Positions 2 to 5,861 of a DNA stretch of 5,931 nucleotides are shown piece after piece; within the stretch, counting starts at the first letter, position 1; the number at the start of each line of letters is the position of its first letter. The notes beneath the pieces were generated by a model that did not search any database, had not been told where the DNA came from, and saw nothing but the letters and a program-made list of their open reading frames with translations. The DNA comes from an uncultured Litorilinea sp. (GTDB lineage: Bacteria; Chloroflexota; Anaerolineae; Caldilineales; Caldilineaceae). Position numbers and translations under genes: made by a program. The stretch covers positions 1 to 5,931 of the forward strand of contig CAMPHP010000231.1 of NCBI GenBank assembly GCA_946885925.1. The letters are read 5' to 3'.

Positions 2-388
2 GAGTTCATTGGTCAGGGGTTAGCATTCCCCCTGCAAGTGAACCCGCGTGGCGAGTTGGCCTTGGTGACAGGGCCGACGGATATTGAACAGGCCATCGGC
101 ATCATCTTGGGAACAATTCCGGGTGAGCGAGTGATGCGCCCGCAATTTGGTTGTCGCGCATGGGAATTGATCTTTGAGCCTATCAATGCCGCCACGACCA
201 GTCTGCTCGCACTTTATGTGCGACAAGCATTGGAGTTTTGGGAGCCGCGCATCGAGTTGACGGATGTCATTGTCAACATTGACCCCAACGAGGAGAGCGC
301 GTTGTTGGTCGAGATCTACTATACGATCAAGAGTACCCACGACCATCGTAGTATTGTTTATCCATTTTATATTATGGGTGAGGAGTAG
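2..388 (+). CDS. gp25-like baseplate wedge protein of a contractile tail / eCIS (5' partial)
   Basis: This is the C-terminal 128 residues of a T4 gp25-family (GPW/gp25, Afp9-like) protein, a baseplate wedge component of contractile tails thought to help nucleate sheath assembly. The reading frame is open to the left edge and begins with FIGQGLAFPLQVNPRGELAL, the usual N-terminal family signature, so only a few residues are missing and the true start lies before base 1. Other visible hallmarks are DIEQAIGIILGT (visible residues 27-38), the GERVMRPQFG block (41-50), which is the most conserved part of the family, and ELIFEP (55-60). The total length fits the usual 130-150 residues. The stop is 3 nt before the next ATG, so the two genes are co-transcribed. 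A GTG at 38 could be read as a start but would remove the conserved FIGxGxAFPL segment. Family assignment is strong; the choice of eCIS over phage rests on the neighbours. Confidence 0.93.
   Translation, partial: EFIGQGLAFPLQVNPRGELALVTGPTDIEQAIGIILGTIPGERVMRPQFGCRAWELIFEPINAATTSLLALYVRQALEFWEPRIELTDVIVNIDPNEESALLVEIYYTIKSTHDHRSIVYPFYIMGEE
381..385 (+). promoter_or_regulatory. Ribosome binding site of the gp6/gpJ-like baseplate gene
   Basis: AGGAG lies 6 nt before the ATG at 392 and is embedded in the last codons of the gp25-like gene. This fixes the start of the 709-residue protein and indicates coupled translation of the two genes. Confidence 0.7.
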
Positions 389-391
389 CGC

Positions 392-2521
392 ATGGCTCTG
401 CCTGTGCCCAATTTGGACGATCTTCAGTTCCAACGTGACTTGGTGGATGAGGCGCGCTTACGCATCATTCGCTATTGTCCGGAGTGGACTGAATATAATG
501 TGAGTGATCCTGGCATTACGTTGATCGAGTTATTTGCCTGGATGACCGAGATGATTGTCTATCGCCTGAACAAGGTGCCGGACAAGAATTACATCAAGTT
601 TCTTGATATGGTCGGCGTGGAACTTATGCCCGCTGCCAGTGCAGAAGCCGACTTGACCTTTCGCCTCTCTGCGCCCTTTCCGTTGAGTGCAGAGAGCAAC
701 ACCCCAGCGGTTGTACCGAGCGGGTTGGAAGTGGCAACCAACGCGATGGGCGATGCGCCAGAGGTTATCTTCACTACGACTGAGCCGTTGATTATCAATG
801 GCCCGGTCTTGTCACAATTGCGTGGGGATGAGTTTCATAAGAACTATCTACCGCGCCTGGGCATTGAGATCTTCCATGTCTTTGGCGCGGGGCGTCCCCA
901 AACGGGTGCTACCTTTTACCTGGGTTTTGAGGATAACAACAACATTGCAGGCCATATCCTGCGCCTGGTCTTCGAGTGTGAGCGCACGGAAGCTGTCGGT
1001 ATCCGCCGCGAAGATCCGCCGCTGGTCTGGGAGTGCTCGTTGGGCGATGGGATTTGGGAAGAGATTTTGCCTAGCAACTTGGAAGGCGAAAAAGATACCA
1101 CGGGCGGTTTGAATAACGAACGTGGCGAGATTACCTTTTATCTGCCACGCGCCTTCCGGCCCGATCAGGTGTATGGGCGCAATGCCTATTGGTTGCGCTG
1201 TCGTTTTGAGCCGCGGCGTCCAGAACAGGGACGTTATACCGAATCCCCGCGCGTGCGCAATGTTCAAGCCTTTGCACTGGGCGCAACCACGACCGCAGTC
1301 AATGCCGTCTTTAATTACTTTGAAGATCTCGGTACGAGCAGTGGCGATCCGGGTCAGAGTTTTCAGTTGGCTTTCTCGCCTGTCCTAGATTTGCATGAAG
1401 ACGAGACGGTGGAAGTGGAGGAGATCCGCGATGGGCTGTTGGTCTATGTTCCCTGGCAGCGCGTCAAGGATTTTAGCAAGTCTGATCGTTTCGACCGCCA
1501 TTTTGTGTTAGAAACCGCAACAGGCCAGATTCACTTCGGCCCCAGCATCCGCCAGCCCGATGGCAGCGTGCGCCAATATGGGCGCGTGCCGGAGGTAGGG
1601 CGACGCATACGCATTACAAAATATCGCTATGGCGGTGGTGTGGCTGGCAACGTGCCCACGGGGCGCATCAGCGTTATGCGTTCAGCAGTTCCCTATATTG
1701 ACCGTGTGACCAACATGCGCCGCGCCACCGGCGGGCGCGACCAAGAGACGCTGGAGGAAGCAAAAGAGCGGGCGCGGCGCGAGATGCGCGCCCAATATCG
1801 TGCGGTCACTGCCGAAGACTTTGAAAACCTGGCGTTGAGTGCGGGGCGGGAGATCGCGCGGGTCAAGTGCTTGGCCCCCAGCACCACAGATTCTGCACTG
1901 CCACCGGGCATGGTTGAATTGCTTGTTGTGCCTGCTGTCGCGGATGCGATCTTTGCCGGGGATCTTTCCCGCTTGCAATTGACCGAGCGCACGATCAACC
2001 GGGTGCAACAGTATTTAGACGAGTATCGCTTGTTGACCACGATGCTGCGCGTGCGTGAGCCGAAATATATCGGCGTTAAAGTGCGCGCTGAAATTGTTGT
2101 GAGTGAGCATATTCGCCCTGAAATTGTGCTTGGCCGCGTTGCAGAGGTGTTGCGCCAATATCTGTCCCCCTTGGCTCCATCCGGGCAGAACTTGTTGCCG
2201 GAAGGTGTGGTTGACCCCAACTGGCAAGGATGGCCCTTTGGGCGTTCGCTTTATGTGGCCGAGTTGTATTCACTCATCCAACAAGTGCCAGGGGTAAAGC
2301 ATGTGCTGGATGTGCAGATTCGCCAACGTCCGGTTCTGCCCAACAAGGAAGCTCCTCCATTGGGGCAGTTGGAGGATTTTGCTGGCGCAACTGCGGGTAA
2401 TCTTGCGGGTGCAGGTGGTCAAGACAATACGCTGAACCTTGTCACTGGCAAGGTGCTGCTCGTGCCTGCCGATAGCTTGCTTTGCTCTTTGGAGCATGAA
2501 ATCGAGTTGGTGGAATTATGA
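392..2521 (+). CDS. Putative baseplate assembly protein, gp6/gpJ-like (TIGR02243 type, Afp11-like)
   Basis: This is a 709-residue baseplate wedge protein of the kind found in eCIS loci (TIGR02243, distantly related to T4 gp6 and P2 gpJ). It would form the baseplate ring that connects the central spike to the sheath. The N-terminal segment 8-75 carries the typical PEWTEYNVSDPGITLIELFA block (30-49) and then VPDKNYIKFL (62-71). The middle (about 85-400) is a beta-rich insertion including a GGLNNERGEITFYLP-type strand and an yWLRCRF motif. The Baseplate_J-like core starts at GGGVAGNVPTG (414-424), continues with ATGGRDQETLEEAKERA (445-461) and RAVTAEDFENLAL (470-482). The C-terminal part has WPFGRSLYVAELY (614-626) and VPGV (632-635), typical of the J-family end. 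A Gly/Ala-rich linker precedes the last 35 residues. The protein appears full length and intact. It is soluble, with no signal peptide or membrane segment. It overlaps the next gene by 4 nt. Confidence 0.93.
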   Translation: MALPVPNLDDLQFQRDLVDEARLRIIRYCPEWTEYNVSDPGITLIELFAWMTEMIVYRLNKVPDKNYIKFLDMVGVELMPAASAEADLTFRLSAPFPLSAESNTPAVVPSGLEVATNAMGDAPEVIFTTTEPLIINGPVLSQLRGDEFHKNYLPRLGIEIFHVFGAGRPQTGATFYLGFEDNNNIAGHILRLVFECERTEAVGIRREDPPLVWECSLGDGIWEEILPSNLEGEKDTTGGLNNERGEITFYLPRAFRPDQVYGRNAYWLRCRFEPRRPEQGRYTESPRVRNVQAFALGATTTAVNAVFNYFEDLGTSSGDPGQSFQLAFSPVLDLHEDETVEVEEIRDGLLVYVPWQRVKDFSKSDRFDRHFVLETATGQIHFGPSIRQPDGSVRQYGRVPEVGRRIRITKYRYGGGVAGNVPTGRISVMRSAVPYIDRVTNMRRATGGRDQETLEEAKERARREMRAQYRAVTAEDFENLALSAGREIARVKCLAPSTTDSALPPGMVELLVVPAVADAIFAGDLSRLQLTERTINRVQQYLDEYRLLTTMLRVREPKYIGVKVRAEIVVSEHIRPEIVLGRVAEVLRQYLSPLAPSGQNLLPEGVVDPNWQGWPFGRSLYVAELYSLIQQVPGVKHVLDVQIRQRPVLPNKEAPPLGQLEDFAGATAGNLAGAGGQDNTLNLVTGKVLLVPADSLLCSLEHEIELVEL
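2509..2514 (+). promoter_or_regulatory. Weak Shine-Dalgarno at a gene overlap with two possible ATG starts
   Basis: GGTGGA lies 3 nt before the ATG at 2518 and 6 nt before a second in-frame ATG at 2521. The spacing favours the second ATG, which would shorten the product by one residue. The first ATG overlaps the upstream stop as ATGA, so re-initiation by terminating ribosomes is likely and either codon may serve. Confidence 0.45.
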
Positions 2522-3723
2522 TGGAGCAAACTCCGCCAACCACTGCATCCTTGGCGGCGTTCGCAAGTGACGCAACGGTTTCGAATGAACTTGCAGTGCG
2601 TGAACGTGGTCAACGTGTGGAGGATGCACTAGGGCCTGCCCGTTCGGCTATCACTGTTGACCATGTGGCCGATCAGAGCCGTCGTTACCCAGGAGAAGTG
2701 GTCTCGTTCTATACCCGTATCCACATTCGTGCCGCCGTACCAGGTTTTGCAGTGCGCGTCCAGGTGCCTGCCGGACTAGAGATTGACACCTATCATGCTG
2801 TGGACAGCGGACTGATGCCGATCTTCTATTCCGTCATGGAAGCTCCCGCGCGTGAGTTGGTCATGCTGCCAGGGGCCGATGGTGAGCCGTTCCCGGTAAG
2901 AGTGCCCCACCAGCCAACGCTTCCCATTGAACCCGTACGCCCGGCCCAGGATATGGTCTGGCGTGTAGCAGAGCCCCAAGAGGCGGGGACATCACATGAA
3001 TTTGTGGTAACGGCTGTTGTCCTGCCTGTCTATCACGACACCGTATTGCATAGCACTGCTTCGTTGGCACTTTTGGACGGGGGAGGGGAGCAATTGCTTA
3101 GTACGGCGGCGGCTAGCGTAGCCATTCACCGCAGGGGGCGCTATCTGGATCATCTTCCTTCGTTGTATGAGCAAGATGGATTCATGGGGCGCTTTTTGAT
3201 GCTCTTTGAGAGCTTCCTGGCACCCATTGAACAACAGATCTCTGAGATTCATAACTATTTTGATCCAGACTTGACCCCGGCGCGGTTTCTGCCCTGGCTG
3301 GCATCTTGGTTTGATTTGGTGCTGGATGGCAATTGGAGTGAAGCACAGCAACGTGAGTTGCTGAACTCGGTTATCTGGCTCTATCGCCGTCGTGGTACAC
3401 GCGCTGCGCTACAGCGTTATTTGGAGATTTTTACCCAGCAGCCTGTGGAAATTTTGGAAAGACGCGCCAAGAACATGACGTTGGGGCGGATGGCCCGTTT
3501 GGGCGTGGGAGTTGCCTTGGGCACAGGGAATCAGCCCCACACCTTTACGGTCAAAGTGCGCTTGCGTCCAATTGTGGCAGCAGCCGACCTTGACGAAGAG
3601 GTTGCCGCACGCGAGATTGCACGGTTGGAAAAGCAACGACGTGCCCTGATCGACCGTATGATCATGGCGGAAAAGCCCGCCCATACCAGCTACCGGCTGG
3701 AAATTCTTCCGGTCACCGATTAG
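2518..3723 (+). CDS. gpI-like tail/baseplate protein (TIGR02242 type, Afp12-region) with N-terminal DUF11-like beta domain
   Basis: This 401-residue protein has two parts. Residues about 205-401 match the eCIS/phage tail protein family TIGR02242 (related to P2 gpI): YLDHLPSLY (209-217), a DPDLTPARFLPWLASWF-type helix, then the WLYRRRGT motif (287-294) and LQRYLEIFT. It ends with a family-typical tail that includes HTFTVKVRL and EKPAHTSYRLEI. P2 gpI and its relatives sit at the baseplate wedge beside gpJ-like proteins, which matches the gene order here. Residues about 35-200 are a beta-rich extension. Elements such as YPGEVVSFYTRI, VRVQVPAGLEI and a W-R-V-A-E-P-Q-E-A-G-T-S segment resemble DUF11/TIGR01451-type Ig-like repeats, suggesting an exposed structural or binding domain. 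There is no signal peptide. It shares a 4-nt overlap with the gene before it and is followed by a 59-nt gap. The C-terminal call is strong; the N-terminal fold is a visual inference. Confidence 0.9.
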   Translation: MMEQTPPTTASLAAFASDATVSNELAVRERGQRVEDALGPARSAITVDHVADQSRRYPGEVVSFYTRIHIRAAVPGFAVRVQVPAGLEIDTYHAVDSGLMPIFYSVMEAPARELVMLPGADGEPFPVRVPHQPTLPIEPVRPAQDMVWRVAEPQEAGTSHEFVVTAVVLPVYHDTVLHSTASLALLDGGGEQLLSTAAASVAIHRRGRYLDHLPSLYEQDGFMGRFLMLFESFLAPIEQQISEIHNYFDPDLTPARFLPWLASWFDLVLDGNWSEAQQRELLNSVIWLYRRRGTRAALQRYLEIFTQQPVEILERRAKNMTLGRMARLGVGVALGTGNQPHTFTVKVRLRPIVAAADLDEEVAAREIARLEKQRRALIDRMIMAEKPAHTSYRLEILPVTD

Positions 3724-3782: not shown

Positions 3783-4955
3783 ATGTTTAACAGGGAAGTA
3801 GTAGGTCTCTTTCCGCGCAAGCGAATTCGTGCGGTTGATGGTATGGCGGTGACCGCGGATGTGTGGGAAGAAGCTCACGATTATCATCGCCAGATTAATC
3901 GCCTGCATACCCTGCTTTATCATGGCGCGGGAATTGTCACTGGTCTAGAGGTGATTGCCAGTGATCCAGCCGATAGCTCGGTTTATGTGCTGCCAGGATT
4001 GGCGATGGATTCGATTGGGCAGACGATTGTGATACCAGAGCCGCGTGCGTATGATCTGGGGCACACGGAAGGGCGTCTTTATCTCATTGTGACGTATAAT
4101 GAGAGTCGCCCACAAAGCAGTGGCAGCCGAGTCCAAGAAGATGCTCCGCTCTATGTCCAGGCACAGTACAGCCTGGAAGCTGTCACTGATCTGCCGCCAA
4201 CGCCACACATTGAAGTTGCGCGCATTTGGCGGCGCGACAATACAGCACCCATCGTAGCAGCTAAAGATCCAAATCACCCCCGCGGTAACGAGATTGACAT
4301 GCGTTACCGTCGAACAATCGGCCAACAAGATAAGCCGGTGGTGACTGTTGGCGTGGTTTCCTTGCGTGGCACAGAGGGCGCAAAGCATGGTGAAGGCATG
4401 GCGGCTTTGGCGGCTAGTATCAGGCTGAGCGGTGCCGGGCAAGTCTGGGTCGATCGGGGTGTGCCGCTGTTGGGTGAGCTATCCCGCTATGATTTGATCT
4501 ATTTGGTTGGGCGCGATCAAGTGCAACTGAACAATGACGAGATGATGGCCCTTTATGCCTATTGGCAGGAGGGGGGCGTGATCTTCTATGAGGGCTGTCG
4601 CCGGAACCATGAGGGCGATCCGCCAGCCGATGGGGTCTTTCTGGACTTGGTGAGTGCTTTTGGTGCCAAGATGGAACCGCTAGCCAGCAAGCATCCGATC
4701 TTTTCAACAACCTTTCTCTTTGCGCAACCACCAGCGGGCTTTGAGACCCAGGGCTCATCCCAGGTGCAGGTGGGTGATGGTCTGATCATGAGCACGGCGG
4801 ATTATGGTTGTCTCTGGCGCGGTGAGCGGCGTGGTCGCCCCGCCCAACGGAGTGAAATCCGCGATGCTCAAGAGTGGGGGGCAAACTTAGTGTTGTGGGC
4901 CGCAGCCCATCGCCAAGAACGCACTAGCGCGGCGCGCCAACAATCTCCTGCATAA
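3783..4955 (+). CDS. Two-part eCIS-associated protein: N-terminal tail-associated-type region fused to a DUF4159-like domain
   Basis: This is a 390-residue soluble protein with no signal peptide. Residues about 8-95 (FPRKRIRAVDGMAVTADVW, then HDYHRQINRLHTLLYHGAGI at 32-51, TGLEV, and YVLPGLAMDSIGQTIVIPEP) follow a pattern I recall from uncharacterised proteins in eCIS and phage-tail-like loci: an FPRK start, an RLHxxLxHGxGxVxGL core, then a PGxAxDxxGxxIxI strand. From about 187 the sequence resembles DUF4159, a flavodoxin-like fold related to class I glutamine amidotransferases: YDLIYLVGRD (236-245), NDEMMALYAYWQEGGVIFYE (251-270), HPIF (304-307), MSTADYGCLW (336-345) and EWGANLVLWAA (364-374). 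C272 lies just after the GG-V-I-F-Y-E-G strand, but no full GxCxG nucleophile elbow or Cys-His-Glu triad is evident, so catalysis is doubtful. A GAGGA site supports the start. The locus position suggests a baseplate or tail accessory part. Its function is unknown. Confidence 0.82.
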   Translation: MFNREVVGLFPRKRIRAVDGMAVTADVWEEAHDYHRQINRLHTLLYHGAGIVTGLEVIASDPADSSVYVLPGLAMDSIGQTIVIPEPRAYDLGHTEGRLYLIVTYNESRPQSSGSRVQEDAPLYVQAQYSLEAVTDLPPTPHIEVARIWRRDNTAPIVAAKDPNHPRGNEIDMRYRRTIGQQDKPVVTVGVVSLRGTEGAKHGEGMAALAASIRLSGAGQVWVDRGVPLLGELSRYDLIYLVGRDQVQLNNDEMMALYAYWQEGGVIFYEGCRRNHEGDPPADGVFLDLVSAFGAKMEPLASKHPIFSTTFLFAQPPAGFETQGSSQVQVGDGLIMSTADYGCLWRGERRGRPAQRSEIRDAQEWGANLVLWAAAHRQERTSAARQQSPA

Positions 4956-5096: not shown

Positions 5097-5861
5097 ATGG
5101 CTCAAGAAAGCCGCATCGAAGTTATCAATAAACTTGGCTGGCGCAAGGATTTTGTACTCGATAAGCCGATCATCCAGATTGGGCGCGATGCGCGCAATGA
5201 TCTTGTGCTGGACGATGGTTATGAAAATGGCATTGCCCCGCGCCATGCCCAGTTGCTACCATCGCCGGTAAACAGCCTAGGGTTGCGACTGATTAACTTG
5301 AGTGACAAAGATATTTTGGTCTATGCCCAAGGTGGCAAAGCGACAGCGACCGAGAGCCTCGCTGGGACGCCCACGAGCACCATTGCCCCTCGTTCTTCGG
5401 CGGAGGTGGCTGGTGGTGACCTGCTGAAGATTGGCGAATATTCGTTGATCATTCACGGTGGGACAGTTTACTCCGAAGTTGTAAAGCTAAAGCTGGAGAT
5501 GGCAAGCCGCACATTGGCGCTGGATCGTCCATTAACCGGCGTGCTGACAATTCACCATGTGGGGAATAAGGCCGCGGTTCAGTTCAAGATTGAACTTGAG
5601 GGACTGGACCCTGATTCGTATGAGATTGGGCCAGGGCCAGTGCTCTTCCCCAATGCGGAGAAGCAAGTCTCCTTTCGCTTAATCCATCCTAAGCGTCCTT
5701 ATCCTGCGGCTGGGGCGAATCTCATTACATTTCATGTGAGCGCGCCAGCTGCATATCCGGGTGAGCGTGCGACGGTGAGCCAAGAGATTGAGGTGGCTCC
5801 AATCTATCAACACAAGATGCGCGTCGTGGTCATGGATTCTGCCGATTATCGATTGACTTAG
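5097..5861 (+). CDS. FHA-like domain protein with C-terminal Ig-like beta domain
   Basis: With the ATG at 5097 the protein has 254 residues. Residues about 15-122 read as a forkhead-associated (FHA) domain: IIQIGRDARNDLVLDD (25-40) carries the conserved Gly-Arg and the N-D-L-V-L pattern, PRHAQL (48-53) the conserved His, then LRLINLSDKDILVYAQG (63-79), and GGDLLKIGEYSLII (106-119) closes the fold. FHA domains normally bind phosphothreonine peptides. Here the Ser three residues before the His is Ala (A-P-R-H), and the SxNG loop reads S-D-K-D, so the binding residues look lost. Residues about 125-236 are an Ig-like domain of the kind found in FHA and membrane-associated proteins of eCIS loci (GPVLFPNAEKQVSFRL, KRPYPAAGANLITF). 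There is no transmembrane segment or signal peptide. It lies 141 nt after the previous gene and may have its own promoter. It probably acts as a structural or protein-protein adaptor; the role is inferred. Confidence 0.82.
   Translation: MAQESRIEVINKLGWRKDFVLDKPIIQIGRDARNDLVLDDGYENGIAPRHAQLLPSPVNSLGLRLINLSDKDILVYAQGGKATATESLAGTPTSTIAPRSSAEVAGGDLLKIGEYSLIIHGGTVYSEVVKLKLEMASRTLALDRPLTGVLTIHHVGNKAAVQFKIELEGLDPDSYEIGPGPVLFPNAEKQVSFRLIHPKRPYPAAGANLITFHVSAPAAYPGERATVSQEIEVAPIYQHKMRVVVMDSADYRLT

Follow-up and report, generated by a model that had tools for sequence, protein, structure and literature searches.

The type VI secretion system (T6SS) protein TssK (PDB 5y0e, 5mwn, 6n38; IglD 8dql) has a shoulder fold and a C-terminal head beyond the baseplate anchor. 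Its shoulder binds the baseplate and its head binds TssL/TssM, according to the available text of PMC6300606. Fibres of the eBAP3 type from extracellular contractile injection systems (eCIS; Nachmias et al. 2026, PMC12923769) have a TssK-like N-terminal shoulder of ~200 residues and a variable C-terminal module, and their gene lies downstream of the Tail_P2_I gene in a contractile injection system (CIS) locus. Alg19, the AlgoCIS tail fibre, is called TssK-shaped by its authors in the part of PMC8894135 available, and Cis19 (All3314, PDB 7b5h) is the crown protein in the thylakoid CIS (tCIS) of Anabaena. Here we describe a 390-residue protein that shares this shoulder and carries a DUF4159 domain behind it. 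It is encoded in a 5,931-nucleotide stretch of an uncultured Litorilinea sp. (contig CAMPHP010000231.1), the whole of which we call the window. We refer to the protein as the adaptor, after its probable role.

The shoulder–DUF4159 fusion is genuine and occurs widely across Chloroflexota. The original prediction saw one open reading frame (ORF) joining two domains; the ORF runs exactly from 3783 to 4955 (+) and is conserved across homologues. At E<=1e-3, 443 homologues were recovered from 5.8 billion proteins, and 112 of the best 120 of these cover at least 92% of the query. A near-full-length alignment was obtained for 58 homologues, and a divergent-alignment search found 303 relatives. Conservation counts cover the best 120 of the 443 and the best 120 of the 303 matches, plus the loci; the organisms named among these listed matches are Chloroflexota in every case. 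We also sampled 400 genomes of this phylum, which is that of the Caldilineaceae genome G005 (locus L005). DUF4159 scores above the cut-off in 14 of the 400, all among the 20 genomes matched by a shoulder–DUF4159 alignment; six matches below the cut-off were left uncounted. A single match spans both domains in 12 of the 14, while G264 has the halves on separate contigs and G333 a broken gene (G333:C2, 9885-11058, where it is split into two frames; it is intact in other relatives). Such coverage among homologues, together with the recurrence of the pairing in 14 of the 400 genomes, already refutes the idea that two unrelated genes were joined by chance or misassembly, which we regard as practically excluded.

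In the Myxococcota matches listed, the two domains occur apart. DUF4159 is present in 102 of 140 Myxococcota genomes and in one of 14 named control genomes (Caulobacter). No match among those listed from 131 Myxococcota genomes has both domains in one protein; shoulder and DUF4159 are separate there. One separate, divergently oriented myxobacterial DUF4159 gene (G483:C48, 6619-8288) lies beside a CIS gp25–J–shoulder operon, a single case and possibly chance. A phage origin of the adaptor was rejected because no relatives appeared in phage records (50,697 searched by tblastn, E<=1e-5) or in IMG/VR (92 pattern matches, 0 confirmed). Neither of the two outcomes named beforehand as fatal to the fusion idea was seen: the protein is not a single unrelated domain, and its homologues do not lie mostly outside CIS loci.

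The window is laid out as follows.

2..388, + strand: gp25-like baseplate wedge protein (TssE/Cis9-type), with its 5' end beyond the window; PF04965 (GPW_gp25) E 8.9e-25
392..2521, + strand: baseplate J-like protein (Cis11/TssF-type), 709 aa; TIGR02243 E 2.2e-120, PF04865 E 1.6e-17
2518..3723, + strand: Tail_P2_I/TIGR02242 protein (Cis12/TssG-type), 401 aa; PF09684 E 2e-17, TIGR02242 E 1.6e-26
3783..4955, + strand: shoulder and DUF4159 adaptor, 390 aa, ATG start; based on ORF, Pfam, NCBIfam, homologue alignment and structure model
3783..4322, + strand: predicted shoulder (baseplate-anchor) domain, residues 1-180; fold of TssK, phage receptor-binding protein (RBP) or tCIS crown (Cis19) type
4338..4907, + strand: DUF4159 head of ThuA/glutamine amidotransferase (GATase) fold, residues 186-375
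4590..4601, + strand: codons 270-273 (E-G-C-R), where a central head strand ends; structure model and 238-sequence alignment
4800..4817, + strand: codons 340-345 (D-Y-G-C-L-W) of the head; 238-sequence alignment
5097..5861, + strand: FHA-like protein, 254 aa from the ATG at 5097 (the ORF list starts it at TTG 5025); PF00498 16.8 bits against a cut-off of 20.7

A structure model and fold comparison give residues 1-180 a fold like TssK, phage RBPs and the tCIS crown shoulder. The N-terminal part is therefore probably a baseplate-anchored adaptor domain. The NCBIfam family CIS13_fam (NF053767) matches residues 18-108 (E 7.3e-10; profile positions 10-103 of 392). Full-length membership failed (38.6 bits; the cut-off is 370), and we rejected this identity because the match is confined to the first ~100 residues. 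An eCIS-family N-terminus of ~95 residues had been proposed; the CIS-locus type held up, while the border moved, since the anchor domain reaches ~residue 180. Its description as tail-associated agrees with the baseplate-linked gene position and can be sharpened to a probable baseplate-anchored adaptor with the whole ~180-residue shoulder. Anabaena Cis13 (All3316; PMC8894136, in the part available) was our initial structural analogue and was dropped when fold and profile searches gave All3314.

The adaptor differs from each described relative. It lacks the helical neck of TssK, and its head has another fold. Compared with eBAP3-type fibres, it carries a DUF4159/ThuA-GATase head, and some of its relatives have an N-terminal FHA fusion; the main text of PMC12923769, supplements aside, has neither "chloroflex" nor "amidotransferase", and both "DUF4" words in it read DUF4157. 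Alg19, compared by description rather than by sequence, has Ig-like folds and no DUF4159 in the available text. Cis19, unlike the adaptor, is 1476 aa long with a flexible, unmodelled C-terminal part.

The fusion was found in 18 genomes, and its surroundings were examined in 17 (G264 left out). All of these loci are CIS loci. In 14 of the 17 genomes, gp25, baseplate J, Tail_P2_I and the adaptor follow one another in that order on one strand, the same order as TssE, TssF, TssG and TssK. G177 shows J, Tail_P2_I and the adaptor as far as the piece extends, and the G002 and G113 contigs hold nearly no upstream sequence. Each examined piece has one shoulder protein. The G005 contig additionally encodes a WHD-AAA ATPase, a Pvc16_N protein, sheath, tube and hub, and a CIS_tube-LysM protein and a PAAR protein occur in two further loci. 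The Tail_P2_I protein is a candidate attachment site for the adaptor. Its ~200-residue N-terminal part in the window (2518-3130) has no significant Pfam match, and the full length of the protein in loci L004 and L064 is no more than ~190-210 aa.

The C-terminal half is a DUF4159 domain, as originally predicted. Pfam PF13709 matches residues 232-373 above its gathering cut-off (E 2.7e-12; 47.1 bits against 25.9), and the head profile aligns with DUF4159 at E 2.6e-17 (hhalign). The fold is that of class-I GATases by fold comparison, and it is distantly ThuA-like (probability 86%, hhalign). ThuA-like and class-I GATase structures (1t0b, YaaE 2nv0) are its nearest known folds, but no Cys-His-Glu triad could be placed in it. 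C272 was plausible by strand order as the canonical glutaminase nucleophile; it was rejected because E270, two residues earlier, sits on the ThuA histidine. A glutaminase triad is not demonstrated, because of this position of E270 and because the PdxT glutaminase profile gave no alignment to the head (hhalign). The earlier remark that key catalytic residues are not obvious thus still holds.

Conservation of C272, H304, D340 and Y341 had been singled out for checking. Residues were counted in 238 of 241 distinct aligned sequences, which are related to one another rather than independent (L003, P0055 and P0058 were left out for gaps; before four repeats were removed, 242 of 245 rows were counted, 238 with both cysteines). 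Position 270 is E or D in all 238, and R360 and N368 are invariant. D340 is kept in 237, W345 in 236, C272 in 235 and C343 in 234. H304 is histidine in 213, and position 341 holds Y in 216 sequences and F in 21. Both cysteines are present in 234 sequences; three lack both and one lacks C343 alone. Although the exceptions are few and related, their paired loss in the alignment suggests a joint role, as a metal site, disulfide or active site. L003 also seems to lack both in the alignment.

Canonical DUF4159 (Hoch_4089, PDB 4i66), by contrast, is not joined to a shoulder in the sampled Myxococcota. In 29 Myxococcota domains, counted after two sequences with stops (L142, L082) were dropped, D270 and D340 are invariant, position 343 is always Gly and position 272 is never Cys. 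The cysteine pair is therefore a mark of the CIS form.

FHA domains recur around the adaptor. They are usually cytosolic readers of phosphothreonine. An N-terminal FHA domain (PF00498) precedes the shoulder in L034, L035, L039 and L041, above the cut-off (E 1.9e-9 to 4.7e-6). These fused adaptors, and L038, which is cut at its start, are ~550-580 aa long; of 229 proteins, six have at least 500 aa, and all six carry an FHA domain in precomputed Pfam results. One FHA-fused adaptor resembles T6SS TagH, at E 8e-7 and far under that model's cut-off. A loose FHA/Ig-like family, joined by single linkage at E 1e-5, is encoded downstream of the adaptor in 14 of 16 loci, the window included. A member in 11 loci has a strong hydrophobic segment, and in seven (L004, L061-L063, L065-L067) such a member is the immediate next gene. 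The adaptor itself has no membrane segment predicted by hydropathy scan. The window's own FHA-like domain (5097-5861) has APRHA where the fused relatives have SRHHA, so that its phosphothreonine binding is doubtful.

We tentatively favour, at somewhat under an even chance, a fibre-slot adaptor whose head docks a conserved partner. The protein would belong to a cellular (non-phage) Chloroflexota CIS. Judging from fold and gene order, its shoulder would anchor the protein on the baseplate, where it would probably sit as a trimer on the Tail_P2_I/baseplate J wedge, like TssK on TssG, and the DUF4159 domain would project outward as a compact head. The best candidate partner may be the FHA/Ig-like protein, often predicted to be single-pass in the membrane, encoded just downstream. 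The system might then work as TssK does when it docks the T6SS baseplate to the producer's membrane complex. More speculatively, the site of E/D270, C272, H304, D340 and C343 could hold a ligand, metal or redox switch gating contact. Docking is favoured because phosphothreonine reading by FHA domains is usually a cytosolic activity and the heads of TssK bind membrane proteins, and a conserved partner seems likelier than a changing host receptor because the head is kept across a wide Chloroflexota range and its divergence tracks the baseplate. The FHA domains fused to four relatives and the FHA/Ig-like family downstream also speak for a conserved partner. In a bolder version, which strikes us as unlikely, this Chloroflexota branch docks to its own membrane in T6SS fashion: a TssK-like shoulder bears the DUF4159 head, the receptor is an FHA/Ig-like protein that crosses the membrane once, and threonine phosphorylation may act as a switch.

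Several points weigh against docking. The shoulder fold comparisons reached intermediate Z-scores and low TM-scores, and the TssK neck is missing from the adaptor, whose model has no helix between residues 48 and 201. Trimerization, binding to Tail_P2_I and contact with downstream proteins are themselves predictions of this analysis. In L004, ~4.5 kb separate the adaptor from the upstream Tail_P2_I gene. L001 and L064 are without the downstream FHA/Ig-like family, although the next gene in L064 has a hydrophobic segment of its own. The window's downstream protein lacks a membrane segment, its FHA match is sub-threshold and the window ends soon after it; membrane segments throughout rest on the hydropathy scan. 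The head is also not fixed in the phylum, as six of the 20 matched Chloroflexota genomes match in the shoulder region only. The Chloroflexota shoulder therefore carries other C-termini too, which slightly lowers our confidence in docking. Finally, Roseiflexus (Chloroflexota) and others make CIS that lie free in the cytoplasm, as imaged in Roseiflexus, in the available text of PMC12998442, although that lineage may differ from the present loci. In one of the six shoulder-only genomes the shoulder protein (L043:350-1540) ends in helix-hairpin-helix (HHH_5) repeats, which is odd for a fibre-type protein.

Rates of divergence bear on the main competitor, a target-recognition tip, in which a released eCIS would bind a target-cell surface molecule through the DUF4159 head, as is thought for other eBAP3-type fibres. 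We compared 14 loci in 91 pairs (L002, L037, L038 and L060, cut or broken, were left out). Mean identity was 0.548 for gp25, 0.466 for J, 0.422 for Tail_P2_I, 0.400 for the shoulder and 0.355 for the head. The head is thus the least conserved of the five parts and falls below the shoulder in 78 of 91 pairs, as expected for a recognition tip and contrary to docking; the eBAP3 precedent and the carbohydrate-binding-module-like heads seen elsewhere point the same way. Yet head and baseplate J identities vary together (r 0.86), every one of the 14 sampled genomes with DUF4159 retains the head, many of its residues are near-invariant, and FHA domains, fused or adjacent, are generally cytosolic. For the first of these reasons a fast-evolving receptor tip was set aside as favourite; because the head is also the least conserved part, it is kept as a rival, less probable than not and somewhat behind docking.

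A displayed enzyme, with a hydrolase, amidotransferase-like or metal-dependent head whose substrate would be the target surface or a CIS component, is rather improbable. The GATase/ThuA fold, the strict or near-strict retention of R360, N368, D340, C272 and C343, with three of the four exceptions lacking both cysteines, and the enzyme domains of other fibres in the eBAP3 catalogue (PMC12923769) would fit it. However, the ThuA histidine position is taken by E270 rather than C272, the PdxT profile does not align, and neither cysteine occurs in the 29 Myxococcota domains, though D270 and D340 are invariant there. The word DUF4159 was not found in the literature searched, from which no activity is known. 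Very improbable is an assembly factor that would help build the baseplate in the cytoplasm without entering the finished particle: the lack of a predicted membrane segment and the gene's conservation beside wedge genes suit it, but the shoulder fold resembles structural particle components (TssK, the tCIS crown, phage RBP).

What is new is that a conserved CIS adaptor of the TssK/RBP type bears a DUF4159 domain as its head, possibly a novel sort of docking or recognition module. DUF4159, whose function is unknown, thereby gains a definite position within a nanomachine, with named candidate partners. If the bolder docking version is right, DUF4159 would serve for docking or ligand sensing rather than catalysis, and these docking parts are not known from T6SS. 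The question also bears on how Chloroflexota CIS meet the membrane and fire. Firing in Streptomyces coelicolor requires the membrane protein CisA, and a tail-fibre component was not seen there (PMC12237407, available text). The present loci have a shoulder protein. For Roseiflexus, the authors of PMC12998442 note the lack of a close CisA homologue in the available text. A head on a TssK-type anchor, with FHA fused or adjacent, makes the membrane question testable.

Other genes also recur downstream of the adaptor. Two or three related methyltransferase genes follow it in three loci (L005:11062-14509, L001:7761-12057, L002:1373-4810); the one scanned has PF10119 regulatory and PKMT C-terminal domains. 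Long proteins that combine VWA and Big_7 domains and have predicted membrane segments lie beside the FHA genes downstream of the adaptor in two loci (L005:15644-18445, L002:5790-8621).
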